Shown here piece after piece: positions 689 to 7,713 of a stretch of 59,276 nt of DNA. The notes under the pieces were generated by a model. That model saw only the letters and a list, made by a program, of their open reading frames with translations, had not been told where the DNA came from and ran no database searches. The translations under genes and the position numbers were made by a program. The first letter of the stretch is position 1. Every line of letters begins with the position of its first letter. The DNA is taken from the IMG/VR virus record IMGVR_UViG_3300030118_002680, positions 1 to 59,276 of that record. One strand, written 5' to 3'. This DNA is from a virus.

Positions 689-2284
689 TTATTTTTTATT
701 TCTATGCATGGTTATAATTGCATTAGTAGATAGCAAAGTTACTGCAACACTAATAGCATTTTGTAAAGCTGACCTAGTCACTTTAACAGGGTCTATAACT
801 CCCATGGAAATCATATCACCCCACTCTTCATTTTTTACATCATATCCTACTCCCCACTCTAAGTCTCCTTCTCTTTCATATAAGTATTCATCCATACCTG
901 CGTTTCTGAGAATCTGTATTAATGGAGTTTGCAATGCAGCTCCTAAAATTGCGTAAGCAATTTTTTGCGCAGAATTTTTCATAGACTTAGATTTCTCTTC
1001 GTATTCATATCCTGTATAATATAAAGACAATCCACCTCCCGGAAGTATACCTTCTTCAAGAGCAGACTTGACAGCACATACTGCATCGTCCACTCTATCG
1101 TATAACTCCTTTTGCTCAAGGTCTGTGTTACCACCAACATGGATAACACCTATACCACCTGTAAGCGAAGCGATTCTTTTTTCGATAAAGTTTTTTAATT
1201 GTTTATCGTTTGTCACTTCATGCTGAACCCATAGCTCTTTGACTCTTTCATCTATCGCTACTTGGTTCTCCATCTTATCATCTTTAATGACGATACTTGA
1301 GTCACGCCCAACTATCACCTTGGAACAATGACCCAAGTCGCCAAAGTTTATTAGGCTTAAGTCATCTCCTGTTTCACCACTAAAGTATTTAGCTCCTACT
1401 GACAAAGCTATGTCTTGCATTAATTCATGCTGCCTATATCCAAAGTCCGGTGGTGCAATATTGACAAGCTTCAAATTATTCTTCATTACGTTTGCTGCCA
1501 ATGTATTTATAAATCCTTGTGAGCATGGAGCTATGATTAATAACTTCTTCTGCTCATTTATGATTGGCTTCAATACACTTTCGATTTGTAGTATGGTATT
1601 TATTTCCGTATCACATACTAGCACCATAACATCTTCCATGATACACTCGTCATGCTTTTGGTCGTTTACAAATAAGTGGGATGTGTACCCTCTATCTATT
1701 TTGATTCCTTTGGTAGTCTCAAAATAGGTAGTGTTTGTTTTTGATTTCTCTACAGTAACAATACCGTCTTTGCCTACAGATTTATAAACGTCTGCTATTT
1801 GTTTTCCAATCTTCTCATCATTGTTGGCTGAGATGACTGCAACATCTTTTAATTTTTTTCCTGAAACCTTTTTACCATTCTTGGTTAGCTTCTTGACTAT
1901 GACCTCACATTCTTTCTGTAGCCATGATAATACATCAGGTCTATTGACCTCTTCATCTATTAGCTCCATACCTATCTTGACTAATGATTCTGTCAAGACG
2001 ATAGCTGTGGTCGTTCCATCTCCTGCTGTGGTGGCTGTTCTATCTGCTGCTTCTTTCATTATGCGTACAGCTAGATTTTCAACCTCATCCATAAGGAAGA
2101 TTGATTTAGCTACAGTCACTCCATCTTTGGTAACTGTGATTCCGTGAGTATGTTCAGGTGATTCGATTAGGACCGTATTCCCTCTTGGTCCGAGTGTGGA
2201 CTTTACTGCTTTAGCGATTTGAGTTATACCATTTAAAAGCTTGGCTCTGCCTTCGCTATCGAAGTGTAGTTGTTTTGGATTCAT
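689..2284 (-). CDS. groEL: Chaperonin GroEL (Cpn60), phage-encoded
   Basis: The 531-aa product is a full-length group I chaperonin, slightly shorter than the usual 545 or so. The nucleotide-binding signatures are intact: LGPRGNTVLIE (31-41), ITVTKDGVTVAKS (49-61) and AGDGTTTAIVLTE (87-99). D89 corresponds to E. coli D87. Also present are the GGIGVIHVGG segment and RVDDAVCAVKSALEEGILPGGG, with the Asp corresponding to D398 that is needed for ATP hydrolysis. The C-terminal equatorial helix reads DPVKVTRSALQNA. The C-terminal Gly-Gly-Met tail is absent; the protein ends in HRNKK. It should assemble a double-ring folding chamber in the host cytoplasm, capped by the phage GroES. It has a candidate -7 promoter at 2309-2316 and shares the operon with two downstream genes. 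Catalytic residues look complete, so I expect an active ATPase. Confidence 0.97.
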   Translation of the reverse strand: MNPKQLHFDSEGRAKLLNGITQIAKAVKSTLGPRGNTVLIESPEHTHGITVTKDGVTVAKSIFLMDEVENLAVRIMKEAADRTATTAGDGTTTAIVLTESLVKIGMELIDEEVNRPDVLSWLQKECEVIVKKLTKNGKKVSGKKLKDVAVISANNDEKIGKQIADVYKSVGKDGIVTVEKSKTNTTYFETTKGIKIDRGYTSHLFVNDQKHDECIMEDVMVLVCDTEINTILQIESVLKPIINEQKKLLIIAPCSQGFINTLAANVMKNNLKLVNIAPPDFGYRQHELMQDIALSVGAKYFSGETGDDLSLINFGDLGHCSKVIVGRDSSIVIKDDKMENQVAIDERVKELWVQHEVTNDKQLKNFIEKRIASLTGGIGVIHVGGNTDLEQKELYDRVDDAVCAVKSALEEGILPGGGLSLYYTGYEYEEKSKSMKNSAQKIAYAILGAALQTPLIQILRNAGMDEYLYEREGDLEWGVGYDVKNEEWGDMISMGVIDPVKVTRSALQNAISVAVTLLSTNAIITMHRNKK

Positions 2285-3144: not shown

Positions 3145-3282
3145 GAAAATTTTATTTAGATACTTAGGGCTTTCGGGTTATATGTATGTGTCACAACAAT
3201 GTGCGCTGCAGGAAACACAAAAAATTTTGTATGGGGGGGGTCGTCTTCTGTTGGTGCATGTCTGATTTTTTTAGCTTTTTCT

Positions 3283-3408
3283 CATGCGTATGTGTGCGTA
3301 TGTGTGCATGCGTCATGCGTTGCGTGTGCGATTCAGGTCAGGACTCCGTGCATGCGTGCATAATGCGTGTGTGTACGCACCTACCTGCATGTGTGCGTGT
3401 ACTGAACA
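3283..3408. repeat. Alternating purine-pyrimidine tract (Z-DNA-prone) in the early control region
   Basis: Positions 3283-3313 alternate pyrimidine and purine without a break and include the 10-bp direct repeat TGCGTATGTG at 3285 and 3295. Further alternating runs, built from TGCG, GCATGC and GTGTG, continue to about 3408. A run of eight G residues lies upstream (3233-3240). The composition is strikingly unlike the surrounding A/T-rich DNA. No convincing gene was seen in 3115-3611; the rest of the gap holds the early promoter. Confidence 0.7.
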
Positions 3409-3611: not shown

Positions 3612-3800
3612 ATGAAAAATTTAATCAATTCAACAGAAGTAAACGTAGTTTCTAACTCTATTACAGAACAAGCGCAAATGCAGTTCGCTCTCGAAGACAA
3701 GCTTGAGAGAGATTTTCACTCAGGGTTCATCTCTGAAGAAGAGTACAACGAAGGGTTACAGGGAATCTTCAGAAGGTTTCAAGATATCTACGGCTTCTAG
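3612..3800 (+). CDS. Hypothetical early protein (62 aa)
   Basis: First gene of the plus-strand operon. The acidic helical protein ends in a GFISEEEYNEGLQGIFRRF segment, a short helix pair often seen in small phage proteins. No family recognised. It is separated from the next gene by a hairpin and a hammerhead ribozyme, so its mRNA would end near 3827 with a 2',3'-cyclic phosphate if the ribozyme is active. Confidence 0.7.
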   Translation: MKNLINSTEVNVVSNSITEQAQMQFALEDKLERDFHSGFISEEEYNEGLQGIFRRFQDIYGF

Positions 3801-3805
3801 AGTAC

Positions 3806-3822
3806 AGGGGACTATGTCCCCT
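3806..3822 (+). other. Hairpin immediately upstream of the ribozyme
   Basis: AGGGGAC (3806-3812) pairs with GTCCCCT (3816-3822) around a 3-nt loop. It follows the stop codon at 3800 and abuts stem III of the hammerhead. No T-tract follows. After cleavage it would cap the 3' end of the upstream mRNA and could protect it from exonucleases. Confidence 0.6.
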
Positions 3823-3872
3823 CTGTCGAGAGATGTGTGTCTCTCCTGATGAGTCCCAAAGGACGAAACAGA
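3822..3872 (+). ncRNA. Type III hammerhead self-cleaving ribozyme
   Basis: All invariant core residues are present in order. Stem III 5' strand TCTGT (3822-3826), then cleavage nucleotide C3827. Stem I hairpin GAGAGA-TGTGTG-TCTCTC (3828-3845). Core CTGATGA (3846-3852). Stem II hairpin GTCC-CAAA-GGAC (3853-3864). Core GAAA (3865-3868), whose last A begins the stem III 3' strand ACAGA (3868-3872). Stems I and II are closed by loops and stem III is open, which defines type III. Predicted cleavage lies between 3827 and 3828, 74 nt upstream of the ArdC-like start codon. The element sits in the leader between two early genes, so it would cut the polycistronic mRNA. Confidence 0.92.
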
Positions 3873-3901
3873 AAATTAACTTAAATTAAAAATTTAAAAT
3901 T

Positions 3902-4840
3902 ATGAGTACAAACAAGAATGCAGTTCTCAAGAAAGTAAAAGCCACGCTTCTCGAAGGACTTAAGAAAGACGGCTTGAAGTGGTTCAAACCTTGGAAATCA
4001 GGAGAGAATCACCCAATCAATAACAAATCAGGTAGAGCTTATCGAGGATTCAATACCTTCATCCTTAACTATCAGATGGTGCAAGAAGGTTATGACCACA
4101 ACGAATGGGATACCTTCAAGAGCATATCTGCTAGAGGTGGTAAAGTCCTGAAGGGTCAGAGAGGAACAGATATATTCTTTTGGTTAATATCATATTGCTC
4201 GAAGGAAAACTTCGGAACTTGGTACAGAACGAAAGCAGAGTGTATGAAGAAGGAAAATTGTAACGAAGATGATATCTTCACAAATTTTGACCTGAGATAC
4301 TACAGAGTATGGAACATTGGACAATGCGAAGGTTTGAAACCTCTGAGAAAATTAGGTGAGACGAAAGAAGTAAAGCCTATCGAAAGCTGTGAAAAAATCG
4401 TAGCGAAGTACAAGAAGATAGCTAAGAAGTTAACCTTCAAGGATGTTGAGCAGGACAGAGCTTACTACTCTCCTTCGAAGGATATGATAGTGATGCCGTT
4501 GATGACTCAGTTCGATTCAGAAGATAAATATTATCACACTCTGTTTCATGAGATGGTTCACTCAACAGGTCATGACTCGAGGTTGAACAGAGAAGGAGTT
4601 GCTACAGCATATCAGTTAAATAAAACCAAGCATGATTATGCCTTCGAGGAACTGATTGCAGAGTCAGGAGCTATGGTGTTATCAGGTATTGCAGGAATCA
4701 ACACAGATGACGAAGATAAGCAGAGTCAAGCTTACGTCAACGGATGGGTCAAAGCAGTTGAGAAAGCTGATGAGAAAGCCATCGTATCAGCTCTAACGCA
4801 GTCGGCTAAGGCTACTGATTACATCCTCGGTAACAAATAA
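3902..4840 (+). CDS. ArdC-like antirestriction protein (ssDNA-binding domain plus zincin)
   Basis: The 312-aa product has the ArdC architecture. The N-terminal single-stranded-DNA-binding domain (about 1-145) includes WFKPWKSGENHPIN and RAYRGFNTFIL. The C-terminal zinc metallopeptidase domain carries FHEMVHSTGH (HEMVH at 216-220) and a likely third ligand in EELIAE (249-254). ArdC proteins shield incoming DNA from host restriction. A role early in infection fits its position as second gene after the first early promoter. Its leader contains the hammerhead ribozyme. The stop codon lies in the loop of a perfect 9-bp hairpin (4823-4849) that abuts a tRNA-like minihelix. Confidence 0.88.
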   Translation: MSTNKNAVLKKVKATLLEGLKKDGLKWFKPWKSGENHPINNKSGRAYRGFNTFILNYQMVQEGYDHNEWDTFKSISARGGKVLKGQRGTDIFFWLISYCSKENFGTWYRTKAECMKKENCNEDDIFTNFDLRYYRVWNIGQCEGLKPLRKLGETKEVKPIESCEKIVAKYKKIAKKLTFKDVEQDRAYYSPSKDMIVMPLMTQFDSEDKYYHTLFHEMVHSTGHDSRLNREGVATAYQLNKTKHDYAFEELIAESGAMVLSGIAGINTDDEDKQSQAYVNGWVKAVEKADEKAIVSALTQSAKATDYILGNK

Positions 4841-4891
4841 ACCGAGGATATTCGAGAATGGTTGCAGGGTGGTTCGATTCCACCCCTCGAA
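4823..4891 (+). ncRNA. Hairpin plus acceptor/T-arm minihelix (tRNA-like processing signal)
   Basis: A 9-bp hairpin (ATCCTCGGT 4823-4831 with ACCGAGGAT 4841-4849) encloses the ArdC-like stop codon. One base later TTCGAG (4851-4856) pairs with CTCGAA (4886-4891). Inside it GGGTGG (4867-4872) and CCACCC (4880-4885) enclose TTCGATT, a canonical T-loop. Together these form the 12-bp acceptor/T-arm stack of a tRNA, with only 10 nt (4857-4866) in place of the D and anticodon arms. Such minihelices are known minimal substrates of RNase P and tRNase Z. It ends 25 nt before the next start codon. A processing role is inferred. Confidence 0.6.
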
Positions 4892-4916
4892 GCTAATTTT
4901 AAATATATATATAACT

Positions 4917-5348
4917 ATGAAAAACACACACAAAATCAAAGCTATGAACGCACTCAGAAAGTTAGGAATAACTTGTAAGGAGTCAGAAGTTTATGACCAC
5001 CAAGGTAACGACCTGAGAACTGAAGGATTATTGTTTTGGATTGACAACGAGAGCAACGTAGAAACAGAGTACCATCTTGAAGGAGGTCAATGGGGTAATC
5101 CTACCGAGACATTTGAGCAGGTTTGCGAGGAGTTTAATCTGTTCGTGGAGCCATTCAACTCAGCTATATATTTAGTTTATCTAGATGACATTCCTGAGCC
5201 AACGGAAGTACCTGCAGATGTACTAGCCTTAGATTCAGATTGTCATGCGATAGACAGATGCGATTTCTGTGGCAGTCATGAAGTAACTTATCATCAGTAC
5301 ATAGGTGATTCATACTGCTCGGATTGTGGCGAATGGCAATCAGAGTAA
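4917..5348 (+). CDS. Hypothetical protein with C-terminal zinc ribbon (143 aa)
   Basis: I chose the ATG at 4917 over a GTG at 4869, because the extra 16 codons would overlap the tRNA-like element and look non-coding. The acidic protein begins with basic helix MKNTHKIKAMNALRKLG and ends with a zinc-ribbon pattern: CDFC, then about 15 residues, then CSDC. The middle is acidic and Trp/Phe-rich. It may bind nucleic acid or a host protein, but no family is recognised. It has its own leader after the minihelix. Confidence 0.75.
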   Translation: MKNTHKIKAMNALRKLGITCKESEVYDHQGNDLRTEGLLFWIDNESNVETEYHLEGGQWGNPTETFEQVCEEFNLFVEPFNSAIYLVYLDDIPEPTEVPADVLALDSDCHAIDRCDFCGSHEVTYHQYIGDSYCSDCGEWQSE

Positions 5349-5382
5349 ACGAAAAAAGTTTAACCTGTTGGGCAAAAAAAGA

Positions 5383-5414
5383 TTTGCATATGTCGTTTTT
5401 TTGTCGTATGTTTG
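5383..5414 (+). promoter_or_regulatory. Second early promoter (Bacteroidota type)
   Basis: TTTG (5383-5386), a 20-nt spacer and TATGTTTG (5407-5414) match the consensus. The spacer holds TGTCG with its TCG 14 nt upstream of the -7 box, and ends in TCG. The expected start near 5420 is only about 15 nt upstream of the tRNA-like element at 5435. An inverted iteron-like word (AACCTGTTGGG, 5362-5372) lies just upstream. Confidence 0.8.
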
Positions 5415-5434
5415 TCGAAATTCTGTTGCATAAT

Positions 5435-5503
5435 CGTGGGGAGTCGGTCTAATTTAGGGACTCGAAAACCCTAAAAAAGAAGGTTCAATTCCTTCCCCCA
5501 CAA
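5435..5503 (+). ncRNA. D-arm-poor tRNA-like element
   Basis: CGTGGGG (5435-5441) pairs with CCCCACA (5496-5502), apart from the outermost C/A. GAAGG and CCTTC enclose a TTCAATT T-loop (5479-5495). In between, TTAGGG and CCCTAA form a stem around ACTCGAAAA, in which CTCGAAA could act as an anticodon loop (CGA, Ser-like) with an A/A closing mismatch. There is no normal D-arm and only a short variable loop, so I do not call it a functional tRNA. It lies between the 5383 promoter and the 40-aa gene, ending 22 nt before the ATG. Confidence 0.6.
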
Positions 5504-5524
5504 CTAACTTAAACACTATATAAC

Positions 5525-5647
5525 ATGAGAAAATTAATTTCAAAATTATCAATCGAGAACGTAATCACTTACGGAGTAATGGCTTTTGTATTATCGTCTT
5601 GGACGGCATTAGTATACCACATCATCGTAACAGGTAATACTATATAA
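5525..5647 (+). CDS. Small single-pass membrane protein (40 aa)
   Basis: ATG at 5525, in the A/T-rich leader after the tRNA-like element, opens a 40-aa ORF. It has a basic N-terminus (MRKLISKLS) and a hydrophobic segment (YGVMAFVLSSWTALVYHIIV) long enough to span the inner membrane. The next gene starts one base after its stop. Probably an early host-membrane modifier; function unknown. Confidence 0.6.
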   Translation: MRKLISKLSIENVITYGVMAFVLSSWTALVYHIIVTGNTI

Positions 5648-5648
5648 T

Positions 5649-5915
5649 ATGAAAGGAAGAGGTTGGTTAAACGACACCACTTACAGAGATTTCCCATTCA
5701 ATTATATGGGAAACTCTGCAGGTGAAGAACTAAGCTACTACGATAGGCTAGCTAGTTATATAAAACACAATGAGCTACTCAACGAAGAGCAAACCTTCGA
5801 GCTACTCAGTAGAATTGAAATGTTTATTGAGCAAGAGATTGAAGAGATAAAAGCTGAAGACCAAAGTGAGTGGAGCAGTTCAATTGTTTGGGAGAAAAAA
5901 GATTTTAATAAATAA
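5649..5915 (+). CDS. Hypothetical acidic protein (88 aa)
   Basis: The protein starts MKGRGWLNDTTYRDFP. Its C-terminal two thirds is strongly helical and acidic (SRIEMFIEQEIEEIKAED). No family recognised. It follows the membrane-protein gene directly and shares its transcript. Confidence 0.65.
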   Translation: MKGRGWLNDTTYRDFPFNYMGNSAGEELSYYDRLASYIKHNELLNEEQTFELLSRIEMFIEQEIEEIKAEDQSEWSSSIVWEKKDFNK

Positions 5916-5925
5916 ATATATATAT

Positions 5926-6297
5926 ATGGCGAAAACACACATAGGAACTTCGGTTCCAAAGGATAAGGAAATCAAGCATTATATATTTGATTGCCTTGGT
6001 ACAGCCGATGGATACGAAATCGGTTGGCTACACGAGAAAGATGACGACAATATCAGCGACCCTGATTCAGAATTATTCTATGATAAATATGGGATGATGG
6101 ACGTAGCGAGGGAGCTGATACTTGAAGGACATGACTTCACTAACTATTGGTTAGATGAGGAGGACATAGAAGAATGGGAAGCTGAGAGAGATAAGTGTGA
6201 GGAATGCGATGGTGAAGGGACAATCATATCCCCCACCTACGATGACCCTTACCATGAGGTGCCATGTCCTGAGTGTTCTTGTGGGCATGATATATAA
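5926..6297 (+). CDS. Hypothetical protein with DnaJ-like zinc finger (123 aa)
   Basis: I chose the ATG at 5926 (MAKTHIGTSVPKDKE) rather than one at 5866, because the latter overlaps the previous gene in another frame. The acidic protein ends with CEECDGEGT and then CPECSCG, a paired CxxCxGxG/CxxCxC pattern like the DnaJ cysteine-rich domain. It probably binds one zinc ion. With a chaperonin operon nearby, a chaperone-linked role is conceivable but unproven. A very long hairpin follows the gene. Confidence 0.7.
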   Translation: MAKTHIGTSVPKDKEIKHYIFDCLGTADGYEIGWLHEKDDDNISDPDSELFYDKYGMMDVARELILEGHDFTNYWLDEEDIEEWEAERDKCEECDGEGTIISPTYDDPYHEVPCPECSCGHDI

Positions 6298-6298
6298 A

Positions 6299-6351
6299 TA
6301 TATAATAACTCACACCCCCTTCATTTATGAAGGGTGTGAGTATTATATATA
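6299..6351 (+). other. Long near-perfect hairpin after the zinc-finger gene
   Basis: The left arm TATATAATAACTCACACCC continues CCTTCAT, and the right arm is ATGAAGGGTGTGAGT followed by ATTATATATA. Together they pair over about 24 bp with small bulges and a 2-nt loop. No T-tract follows. It could be an RNase III substrate, an attenuator or an mRNA 3'-end stabiliser. It lies just upstream of the third tRNA-like element. Confidence 0.7.
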
Positions 6352-6356
6352 AATAC

Positions 6357-6486
6357 AGAGCAGATGCTACCTTGGAGGTCGATGTGGTTTTGGAATCATA
6401 ATCCGTTTGACACAGCGTTAGTTAATCATCGATGACCTGTTCACAATCATAGATGTAAAACAGAGGTTCGAATCCTCGTCTGCTCT
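6357..6486 (+). ncRNA. Enlarged (130-nt) tRNA-like element
   Basis: AGAGCAGA (6357-6364) pairs perfectly with TCTGCTCT (6479-6486). GAGG and CCTC enclose the T-loop TTCGAAT (6463-6477). The 5' half resembles a tRNA: CTAC/GTGG as a D-stem, then a short stem presenting CAT (6397-6399) as a possible anticodon. About 55 extra nucleotides fill the variable region. Alternative internal pairings exist: AGGTC+GATG (6376-6384) with CATC and GACCT (6427-6438), and CTGTT (6437-6441) with AACAG (6459-6463). It ends 24 nt before the next ATG. It may be an insertion-bearing tRNA or a tRNA mimic; charging is doubtful. Confidence 0.6.
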
Positions 6487-6510
6487 CTAACTTAATTAAA
6501 CACTACGAAT

Positions 6511-7713
6511 ATGACTAAATTAGAAAAGTCGAACTATGACTATCTCAAGGAGGTACAATGGTTCAATCATGTAGAGTCAATGAAGATTGTCATGCATGAT
6601 AAGGAAACAGGTAGGACTACTAGCTTTACCTGTCACCTGAAAGAAGGTGAATCAGTTGCCGAAGCTCTGCTTAGAGAGAAGGTGACGAAAGACAGAGTTG
6701 ATGTGACGAAAGCAATCAATGACGGAGTACAGGAGTACATGCAATCATATATAGATAGAGAGTTGCTGAAGTACGACAAAGCTATTGCGATACACAACAT
6801 GTTGTGTGACCTGAAGGTCAAAGACAAGAGGACTTACTCGAGTGGTGAAACTTACGAAGGTAAGATAAGAAGTGGAGAACTAATCAACACTCTTCCCATG
6901 AACGATGAGCAGAAGATAGCTTATACCAATGACAAGTTTGTTGTGAAGTTCAATTGTCCATACGATTACGATTGGAGTAATGGTGGCAACAGAAGAGTGT
7001 GGGACAAGAAGAAATGTCTTGTTAGTTATATTCCTGCTTGTGACCTACACCTCACACTAGAGATTACCTCTCAAGCAGTCGAGCTTCCTGTTGGTGATGG
7101 CACCAAAAAGTTTCTGAAGCTCCCACTCTATGACTTGCAATATATATTAACCGAGACGGACAACAAGCCGTATCACCTGTGCCTACTCAACGCTTGTAAC
7201 AGGACTCGCAAGTGGTCGTCCAAGACACACAAGAATGAGTGGAACTACAAGTTCAGTAGCTATCGTGTAAACAAAGAGCAACGAGAAGTAAGCTTGAACA
7301 CATTTATTATCTACTGCCGTGAGAAATCCGAGGACAACAAGAGTATGTTTATTCAAGAGATGAAAGAGGATGTGAACGCAAGAGAAATGATGAATGAGTT
7401 ACGAGAAAAGTTTGGTGTTGATAATGTATCTCAATGCAACATGGGTAAATCAGATGTGAACTTTAACTATTGTTCTTATTGGGGTAGGTACGGCTCCAAG
7501 TGTGTGAAGATATCTTTGGAGGATGGTAGCTACATCCTGTATGACTTCAATGACCTGAAGAGATACAGAGACCTGAAGTTACTTGGATTATATGACAGCA
7601 CATATCAGAAAGAAAAAGTATCTGATGCGTACAAGAGAGTCATGACGACCAACAAGATAGATGCAGAGTTGGTGACGGACATGATGGAAGTATCATTCAA
7701 AAAAAATAAATAA
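6511..7713 (+). CDS. Hypothetical protein (400 aa)
   Basis: The largest unassigned early protein. It has a helical, charged N-terminal third (about 1-120), a beta-rich middle with several Cys and Trp (CPYDYDWSNGGNRRVW near 150), and a Lys-rich helical C-terminus. No catalytic motif recognised. Its own leader follows the 130-nt tRNA-like element. Its stop codon overlaps the next ATG (TAATG), indicating translational coupling. Confidence 0.8.
   Translation: MTKLEKSNYDYLKEVQWFNHVESMKIVMHDKETGRTTSFTCHLKEGESVAEALLREKVTKDRVDVTKAINDGVQEYMQSYIDRELLKYDKAIAIHNMLCDLKVKDKRTYSSGETYEGKIRSGELINTLPMNDEQKIAYTNDKFVVKFNCPYDYDWSNGGNRRVWDKKKCLVSYIPACDLHLTLEITSQAVELPVGDGTKKFLKLPLYDLQYILTETDNKPYHLCLLNACNRTRKWSSKTHKNEWNYKFSSYRVNKEQREVSLNTFIIYCREKSEDNKSMFIQEMKEDVNAREMMNELREKFGVDNVSQCNMGKSDVNFNYCSYWGRYGSKCVKISLEDGSYILYDFNDLKRYRDLKLLGLYDSTYQKEKVSDAYKRVMTTNKIDAELVTDMMEVSFKKNK

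Follow-up and report, generated by a model that had tools for sequence, protein, structure and literature searches.

Gene block and phage relationships

In IMG/VR virus record IMGVR_UViG_3300030118_002680, a plus-strand gene block beginning at position 3612 contains structured RNA in four intergenic gaps, which raises the question of whether a transcript of these genes is cut between them. The window analyzed here is the whole virus record (59,276 bases). The RNA elements are probably best explained by punctuation of a polycistronic phage mRNA by a hammerhead and in the style of tRNAs. Their structures, the conservation of their pairing, their synteny and their positions with respect to stop and start codons were observed directly. 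The initial annotation had placed the four elements in consecutive gaps of an early transcript. The elements are indeed located in one block, but the gaps at 5648 and 5916-5925 consist of only a few bases and are empty, and the designation "early" could not be established, as the analysis yielded neither a promoter nor evidence on expression.

The window encodes a terminase that shares 73% identity with that of an uncultured podovirus; its identity to the terminases of Flavobacterium phages (genus Elemovirus) is ~45%. Based on these relatives, the host of the phage is likely to belong to the Bacteroidota. Neither a megablast search with the window nor a tblastn search with its 400-aa protein gave a match among the INPHARED phages, and a related-locus search with the same protein did not identify relatives. 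Related contigs, with identities of 94, 78 and 68%, were found via the gene for an ArdC-like antirestriction protein (3902..4840, plus strand; Pfam ArdcN and MPTase-PolyVal; PHROG 7245, anti-restriction), which has a hammerhead on one side and a minihelix on the other. Hammerhead and minihelix were both absent from the scanned parts of the terminase relatives MW202828 and Elemovirus elemoE. Because these closest terminase relatives lack both, the body of the phage does not depend on them.

The window also contains a GroEL-type chaperonin gene (689-2284, minus strand), and groEL and co-chaperonin genes are present in MW202828 and elemoE as well. A GT/GC-rich alternating repeat tract (tgtgtgcgtatgtgtgcatgcg) at 3180-3400 lies between divergent gene blocks and might serve as an origin or as a control region. 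MW202828 also has, directly 3' of a gene, a tRNA-like sequence that is neither annotated nor called by ARAGORN (L312:522-630); its 7-bp acceptor is perfect, a T arm is present, and its middle is enlarged.

A type III hammerhead upstream of the antirestriction gene

The first element (3822..3872, plus strand) matches the Rfam model Hammerhead_3 with 48.5 bits (E=6.9e-9). This score is exactly at the gathering cut-off, and an Rfam scan of the window at gathering thresholds listed no match. Its sequence, UCUGUC^GAGAGAUGUGUGUCUCUC CUGAUGA GUCCCAAAGGAC GAAA CAGA, contains the type III core CUGAUGA...GAAA and a UH cleavage site, as seen in both the sequence and the Rfam alignment, and folds into three stems, of which stem III is the one that opens to the rest of the transcript. 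Judging from the intact core, the hammerhead is predicted to cleave itself after C3827. Compensated changes are found in 7 of its 14 pairs (six homologues); stem III of contig L004, for example, is CCGGU/ACCGG versus UCUGU/ACAGA. When single sequences were folded, the hammerhead region was the only one that stood out strongly (z -3.75). The element ends 29 nt before the start codon at 3902.

Three tRNA-like elements

The second element (4851..4891, plus strand) is a tRNA-like minihelix of 41 nt with the sequence TTCGAG / AATGGTTGCA / GGGTGG TTCGATT CCACCC / CTCGAA. It is composed of a 6-bp acceptor, the D-loop-like linker AATGGTTGCA, a 6-bp T stem and the T loop TTCGATT, and it is followed by GCTAA. 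Covariance model R1 detects it with 61.7 bits (E=9e-15), an E-value that is not independent evidence, as is the case for every sequence in the alignment of the model, the window minihelix included. A strict minihelix descriptor gave one match in ~2.8 Mb of Markov-shuffled sequence.

The third element (5436..5501, plus strand) has no D arm and consists of a T arm and an anticodon-like arm with the loop CTCGAAA, in which a serine-like anticodon loop is kept; AACTAAC comes next. Five of its pairs are compensated, in a comparison of only three homologues. The fourth (6357..6486, plus strand) is an enlarged tRNA-like element that combines an acceptor, a conserved core (TGCTACCTTGGNGGTCG) and the T arm AGAGG TTCGAAT CCTCG, followed by CTAAC. 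Compensation was observed for 8 of its 20 pairs among seven homologues, counting that of the window. In the clade of the window, CTAA is usually found within a few bases 3' of the acceptor stem.

These three elements end 25, 23 and 24 nt before the ATG codons at 4917, 5525 and 6511, respectively, so that, together with the 29 nt for the hammerhead, the spacings given in the initial annotation (22-25 nt and about 30 nt) hold. None of the three is a tRNA in the sense of a cloverleaf recognized by tRNA models: ARAGORN found no tRNA in the window, and the Rfam tRNA model left the second and fourth elements unmatched and scored the third at 22.6 bits, below its 29-bit cut-off. Folding of the single sequences of elements 2, 3 and 4 gave signals that are weak on their own (z -0.6, -2.1 and -1.2), and the reality of these elements therefore rests on the comparison with relatives.

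Conservation of element order and adjacent hairpins

The order hammerhead, antirestriction (ArdC-like) gene, minihelix is common to the window and contigs L002, L003 and L004. Moreover, L002 and L003 contain all four element types in matching order, and L004 contains, also in matching order, a hammerhead, two minihelices and the enlarged element. The four elements are confirmed at the places where they had been reported, and the comparison with related phages proposed at that time shows that all four recur with compensatory changes at conserved positions between genes. In the same gene block, L002 additionally encodes an intact tRNA-Met and, immediately 3' of it, a tRNA-like RNA with its anticodon arm extended by a long insertion; both (L002:4940-5152) are located in the gap 5' of the next gene.

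Hairpins are present immediately 5' of most of the proposed cut sites examined. According to folding, the hairpin GGGGAC-UAU-GUCCCC (3807..3821, plus strand) directly precedes the hammerhead of the window, with a gap of 0 nt. Such a pre-hammerhead hairpin occurs in 5 of 6 cases (window, L002, L003, L004 and L123), with stems that differ in sequence but are compensated, and it is a candidate protector of the 3' end of the mRNA of the 62-aa gene. A second hairpin (4823..4849, plus strand; folding) is formed around the stop codon of the ArdC-like gene, 1 nt from the minihelix; in L002, L003, L004 and L123 as well, hairpins of different sequence are found directly at the minihelix or no more than 4 nt away. 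Finally, a strong hairpin, CTCACACCC...GGGTGTGAG (6298..6350, plus strand; folding), separates the 123-aa gene from the fourth element, and a similar one can be read from the sequence of L002 at ~5770-5812. If the transcript is cut at these sites, the hairpins would be located where a protective 3' end is wanted.

Outside the clade of the window, the co-occurrence of hammerhead and minihelix is weak (L103, and L019 with a type II hammerhead). The combination is therefore a feature of this phage group and not of the minihelix family. The hammerhead-bearing contigs L179, L225 and L255 contain a second minihelix type, possibly a sister class, with a linker of 11-12 nt that often ends in GTAGGTT and an acceptor containing several G-U pairs.

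The minihelix family

We screened IMG/VR and one genome per prokaryote species for the pure sequence motif GAATGGTT-8N-GTTCGATTC, which represents one spelling of the linker and T loop and does not require pairing. At least 145 unique matches were obtained in virus and prokaryote contigs; of the 145 matches listed, 107 form the T stem as well as the acceptor. When the 3' strands were dealt at random, a mean of 2.7 of the 145 were paired, with a maximum of 9 over 200 trials. In a set of 63 non-redundant members, the share of cells that pair is 97.4%, versus 54.8% after shuffling and 40-53% when the partner was slid; because these rows were chosen partly for pairing, the random-dealing test is the unbiased one. 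Compensatory changes maintain the pairing across unrelated phages, and one contig of 17 kb contains ten model matches. GC-rich stems in intergenic gaps could also be intrinsic transcription terminators or chance inverted repeats, but it is extremely improbable that this applies here, considering that the excess of paired elements over random strand dealing is 107 to 2.7 and that a terminator scan was empty at the element sites, for which reason the terminator model was rejected.

The stack of acceptor and T stem is mostly 11-13 bp long among the matches listed, with a mode of 12 in unbulged members; a subclass has one bulged base in the stack. The 3' tail reads A-C-N-A, with the C present in 53 of 71 unbulged and 12 of 36 bulged members among the matches listed. 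The +1 base is often U, versus the G that is usual in tRNAs.

A minihelix with both stems was also found in the archaeal genome of Haloferax marinum (L274:5471-5515, minus strand), which suggests that the family extends to archaeal viruses or proviruses. Blastn searches with the minihelix loci L107, L012 and L037 gave no match; those with L274 gave short matches, the annotated ones being tRNA genes. ARAGORN and Rfam contain no family or call that covers the minihelix, and we found no description of the family in the open-access literature, most subscription papers being outside that search. It thus appears to be an undescribed RNA family.

Position of minihelices relative to genes

The stop codon of a long reading frame is located at most 60 nt upstream of the minihelix in 80 of 113 members among the matches listed, compared with 59 of 294 controls; gene positions in these unannotated contigs correspond to open frames and not to curated genes. 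The distance from stop codon to minihelix has a mode of 8 nt, and a few elements are far from an upstream stop.

Two annotated phages of Mycobacterium smegmatis, Indlulamithi and Fowlmouth, provided an independent test of this position. Indlulamithi contains 11 minihelices in ~8 kb (L310, NC_048824 34500-42700) and Fowlmouth 8 in ~8 kb (L311, NC_048734 33400-40900), all unannotated in both records. In 15 of these 19 cases the minihelix starts 5-13 nt past an annotated stop codon, and most of them end 35-53 nt upstream of the next annotated start. In places, nearly every gene of these two phages is followed by a minihelix. Their linker is mostly AACGGTTTTCG and not AATGGTT; the conserved part of the linker is therefore GG followed by TT. 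Two members in L310 resemble mascRNA-menRNA (RF01684), with 23.0 and 22.3 bits versus a cut-off of 42.5, and two stretches of L310 resemble the tRNA-like domain of tmRNA at scores below the Rfam cut-off.

Viral readthrough signals have a similar 8-nt spacing after the stop codon, and the minihelices might accordingly be signals for stop-codon readthrough or reinitiation ~8 nt past the stop. The stops are predominantly TAA, however, and the frames behind them, with a median of 18.5 codons, are short and of widely varying length, which makes this function very improbable; the readthrough model was rejected on these grounds. The preferred distance to stop codons also bears on the idea of an origin as worn phage tRNA genes, or of a role as tRNA mimics acting in trans, such as decoys for host defences that target tRNAs; the location between genes would then be incidental. 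The anticodon loop of the third element would fit such an origin, as would the intact tRNA-Met and the long-insert tRNA-like RNA nearby in L002. We consider it unlikely all the same: decay would not produce a preferred distance, and minihelices have no anticodon and show compensated pairing across unrelated phages.

A model for transcript punctuation

RNase P makes use of a ~12-bp stem that ends in a T loop, of a GG able to contact this loop and of an RCCA-like 3' tail. The minihelices resemble model substrates of this enzyme in having a stack of ~12 bp and a T loop, the letters of the latter being part of the search motif. In tRNAs, G18-G19 reach the T loop, and the GG of the minihelix could do the same. 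The RCCA interaction and the model substrates of RNase P have been reviewed (PMC11143913).

From these features we infer the cleavages, the enzymes and the benefit to the phage in the following model. A polycistronic phage transcript would be cut between genes by two routes. The hammerhead would cleave itself after C3827 and require no enzyme. The three tRNA-like elements would each offer an acceptor/T-arm stack with a T loop, to which the minihelix adds a GG-bearing D-loop-like linker; host RNase P would cut them on their 5' side, just past each gene, and their 3' side would probably be processed by RNase Z or exonucleases. The upstream message would consequently end shortly past its stop codon, often behind a hairpin, and the downstream message would begin 23-25 nt from its start codon or with the body of the hammerhead as a folded leader. 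Speaking against the model are the frequent U at +1, the less CCA-like tail of bulged members, the few elements remote from an upstream stop, and the terminase relatives that lack hammerhead and minihelix in the parts scanned.

The main rival to this model is that only the hammerhead cleaves and that the tRNA-like elements stay uncut, as folded structures that shield mRNA ends, block exonucleases or bind proteins recognizing T arms, such as TruB and TrmA. A site just past the stop codon is what a 3' protector would occupy, and the hairpins at the same places indicate that 3' structure matters; a plain hairpin would suffice for this role, though, and a stack of constant length with a T loop and a GG linker, together with a tail that is RCCA-like in part of the members, is what a substrate for processing would show. 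We therefore give this alternative a modest chance, well short of an even one. As for the punctuation proposed in the initial annotation, structure and position are conserved and look like those of RNA-processing signals, and cleavage itself, like the suggested purposes of tuning gene stoichiometry or resisting nucleases, is a prediction.

More broadly, we lean towards the view that minihelices of ~41 nt are a widespread gene-end signal that captures host RNase P, to which some phages add hammerheads; this would cover Bacteroidota-type phages, mycobacteriophages and the one match in a Haloferax genome. If so, phages of distant hosts use RNase P, which to our knowledge hardly any cell can do without, as an mRNA-cutting machine by means of a tiny tRNA-like RNA. 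This would then account for a class of gaps that is conserved in phage genomes, and the minihelix would provide both a transcript-boundary marker that can be read from the genome and a compact cleavage element. Two of the carriers are isolated phages of M. smegmatis, which makes punctuation directly accessible to experiment.

Comparison with known systems

In the early mRNA of T7, RNase III sites allow a polycistronic transcript to be cut between genes; these are double-stranded hairpins cut by RNase III, whereas the window contains tRNA-like RNA. The mammalian nuclear mascRNA and menRNA (of MALAT1 and MEN beta) are tRNA-like, and RNase P forms the 3' end of the RNA upstream of them beside a protective structure. 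They have a fuller cloverleaf; homology with the phage elements is not claimed, and by the Rfam gathering cut-off these do not belong to RF01684.

In plant mitochondria, cuts by RNase P and RNase Z at t-elements define transcript ends (PMC11658184). Like t-elements and the tRNAs of mitochondrial punctuation, the phage elements are tRNA-like, intergenic, located at gene ends and on the coding strand. However, t-elements are tRNA-derived homologues of tRNA genes, whereas the phage minihelix consists solely of an acceptor, a linker and a T arm and is not recognized by tRNA models. The minihelix would thus work like a t-element but is not classed as one, because homology to a tRNA gene is lacking.

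The initial annotation knew of no phage system that combines a hammerhead with tRNA-like minihelices. Part of this has precedents. Hammerheads flanking phage and prophage genes, including ardA, were described in 2011 as likely processors of long transcripts (PMC3088659). The hammerhead of the window similarly has a type III core beside an antirestriction gene, here ArdC-like; unlike those, it shares its gene block with tRNA-like elements, and a covarying hairpin lies 5' of it. Both a hammerhead and tRNA-like sequences are mentioned for one virus genome of the halovirus HF1 group; their functions were said to need study, and a partial tRNA-Thr was assigned as attachment site (PMC7230728). This likeness, two kinds of elements in one virus genome, is taken from the published description. 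The minihelix family itself, by comparison, was not found described in the open-access papers searched. The principle of punctuation by tRNA-like RNA is therefore known, and its minihelix version appears to be new.
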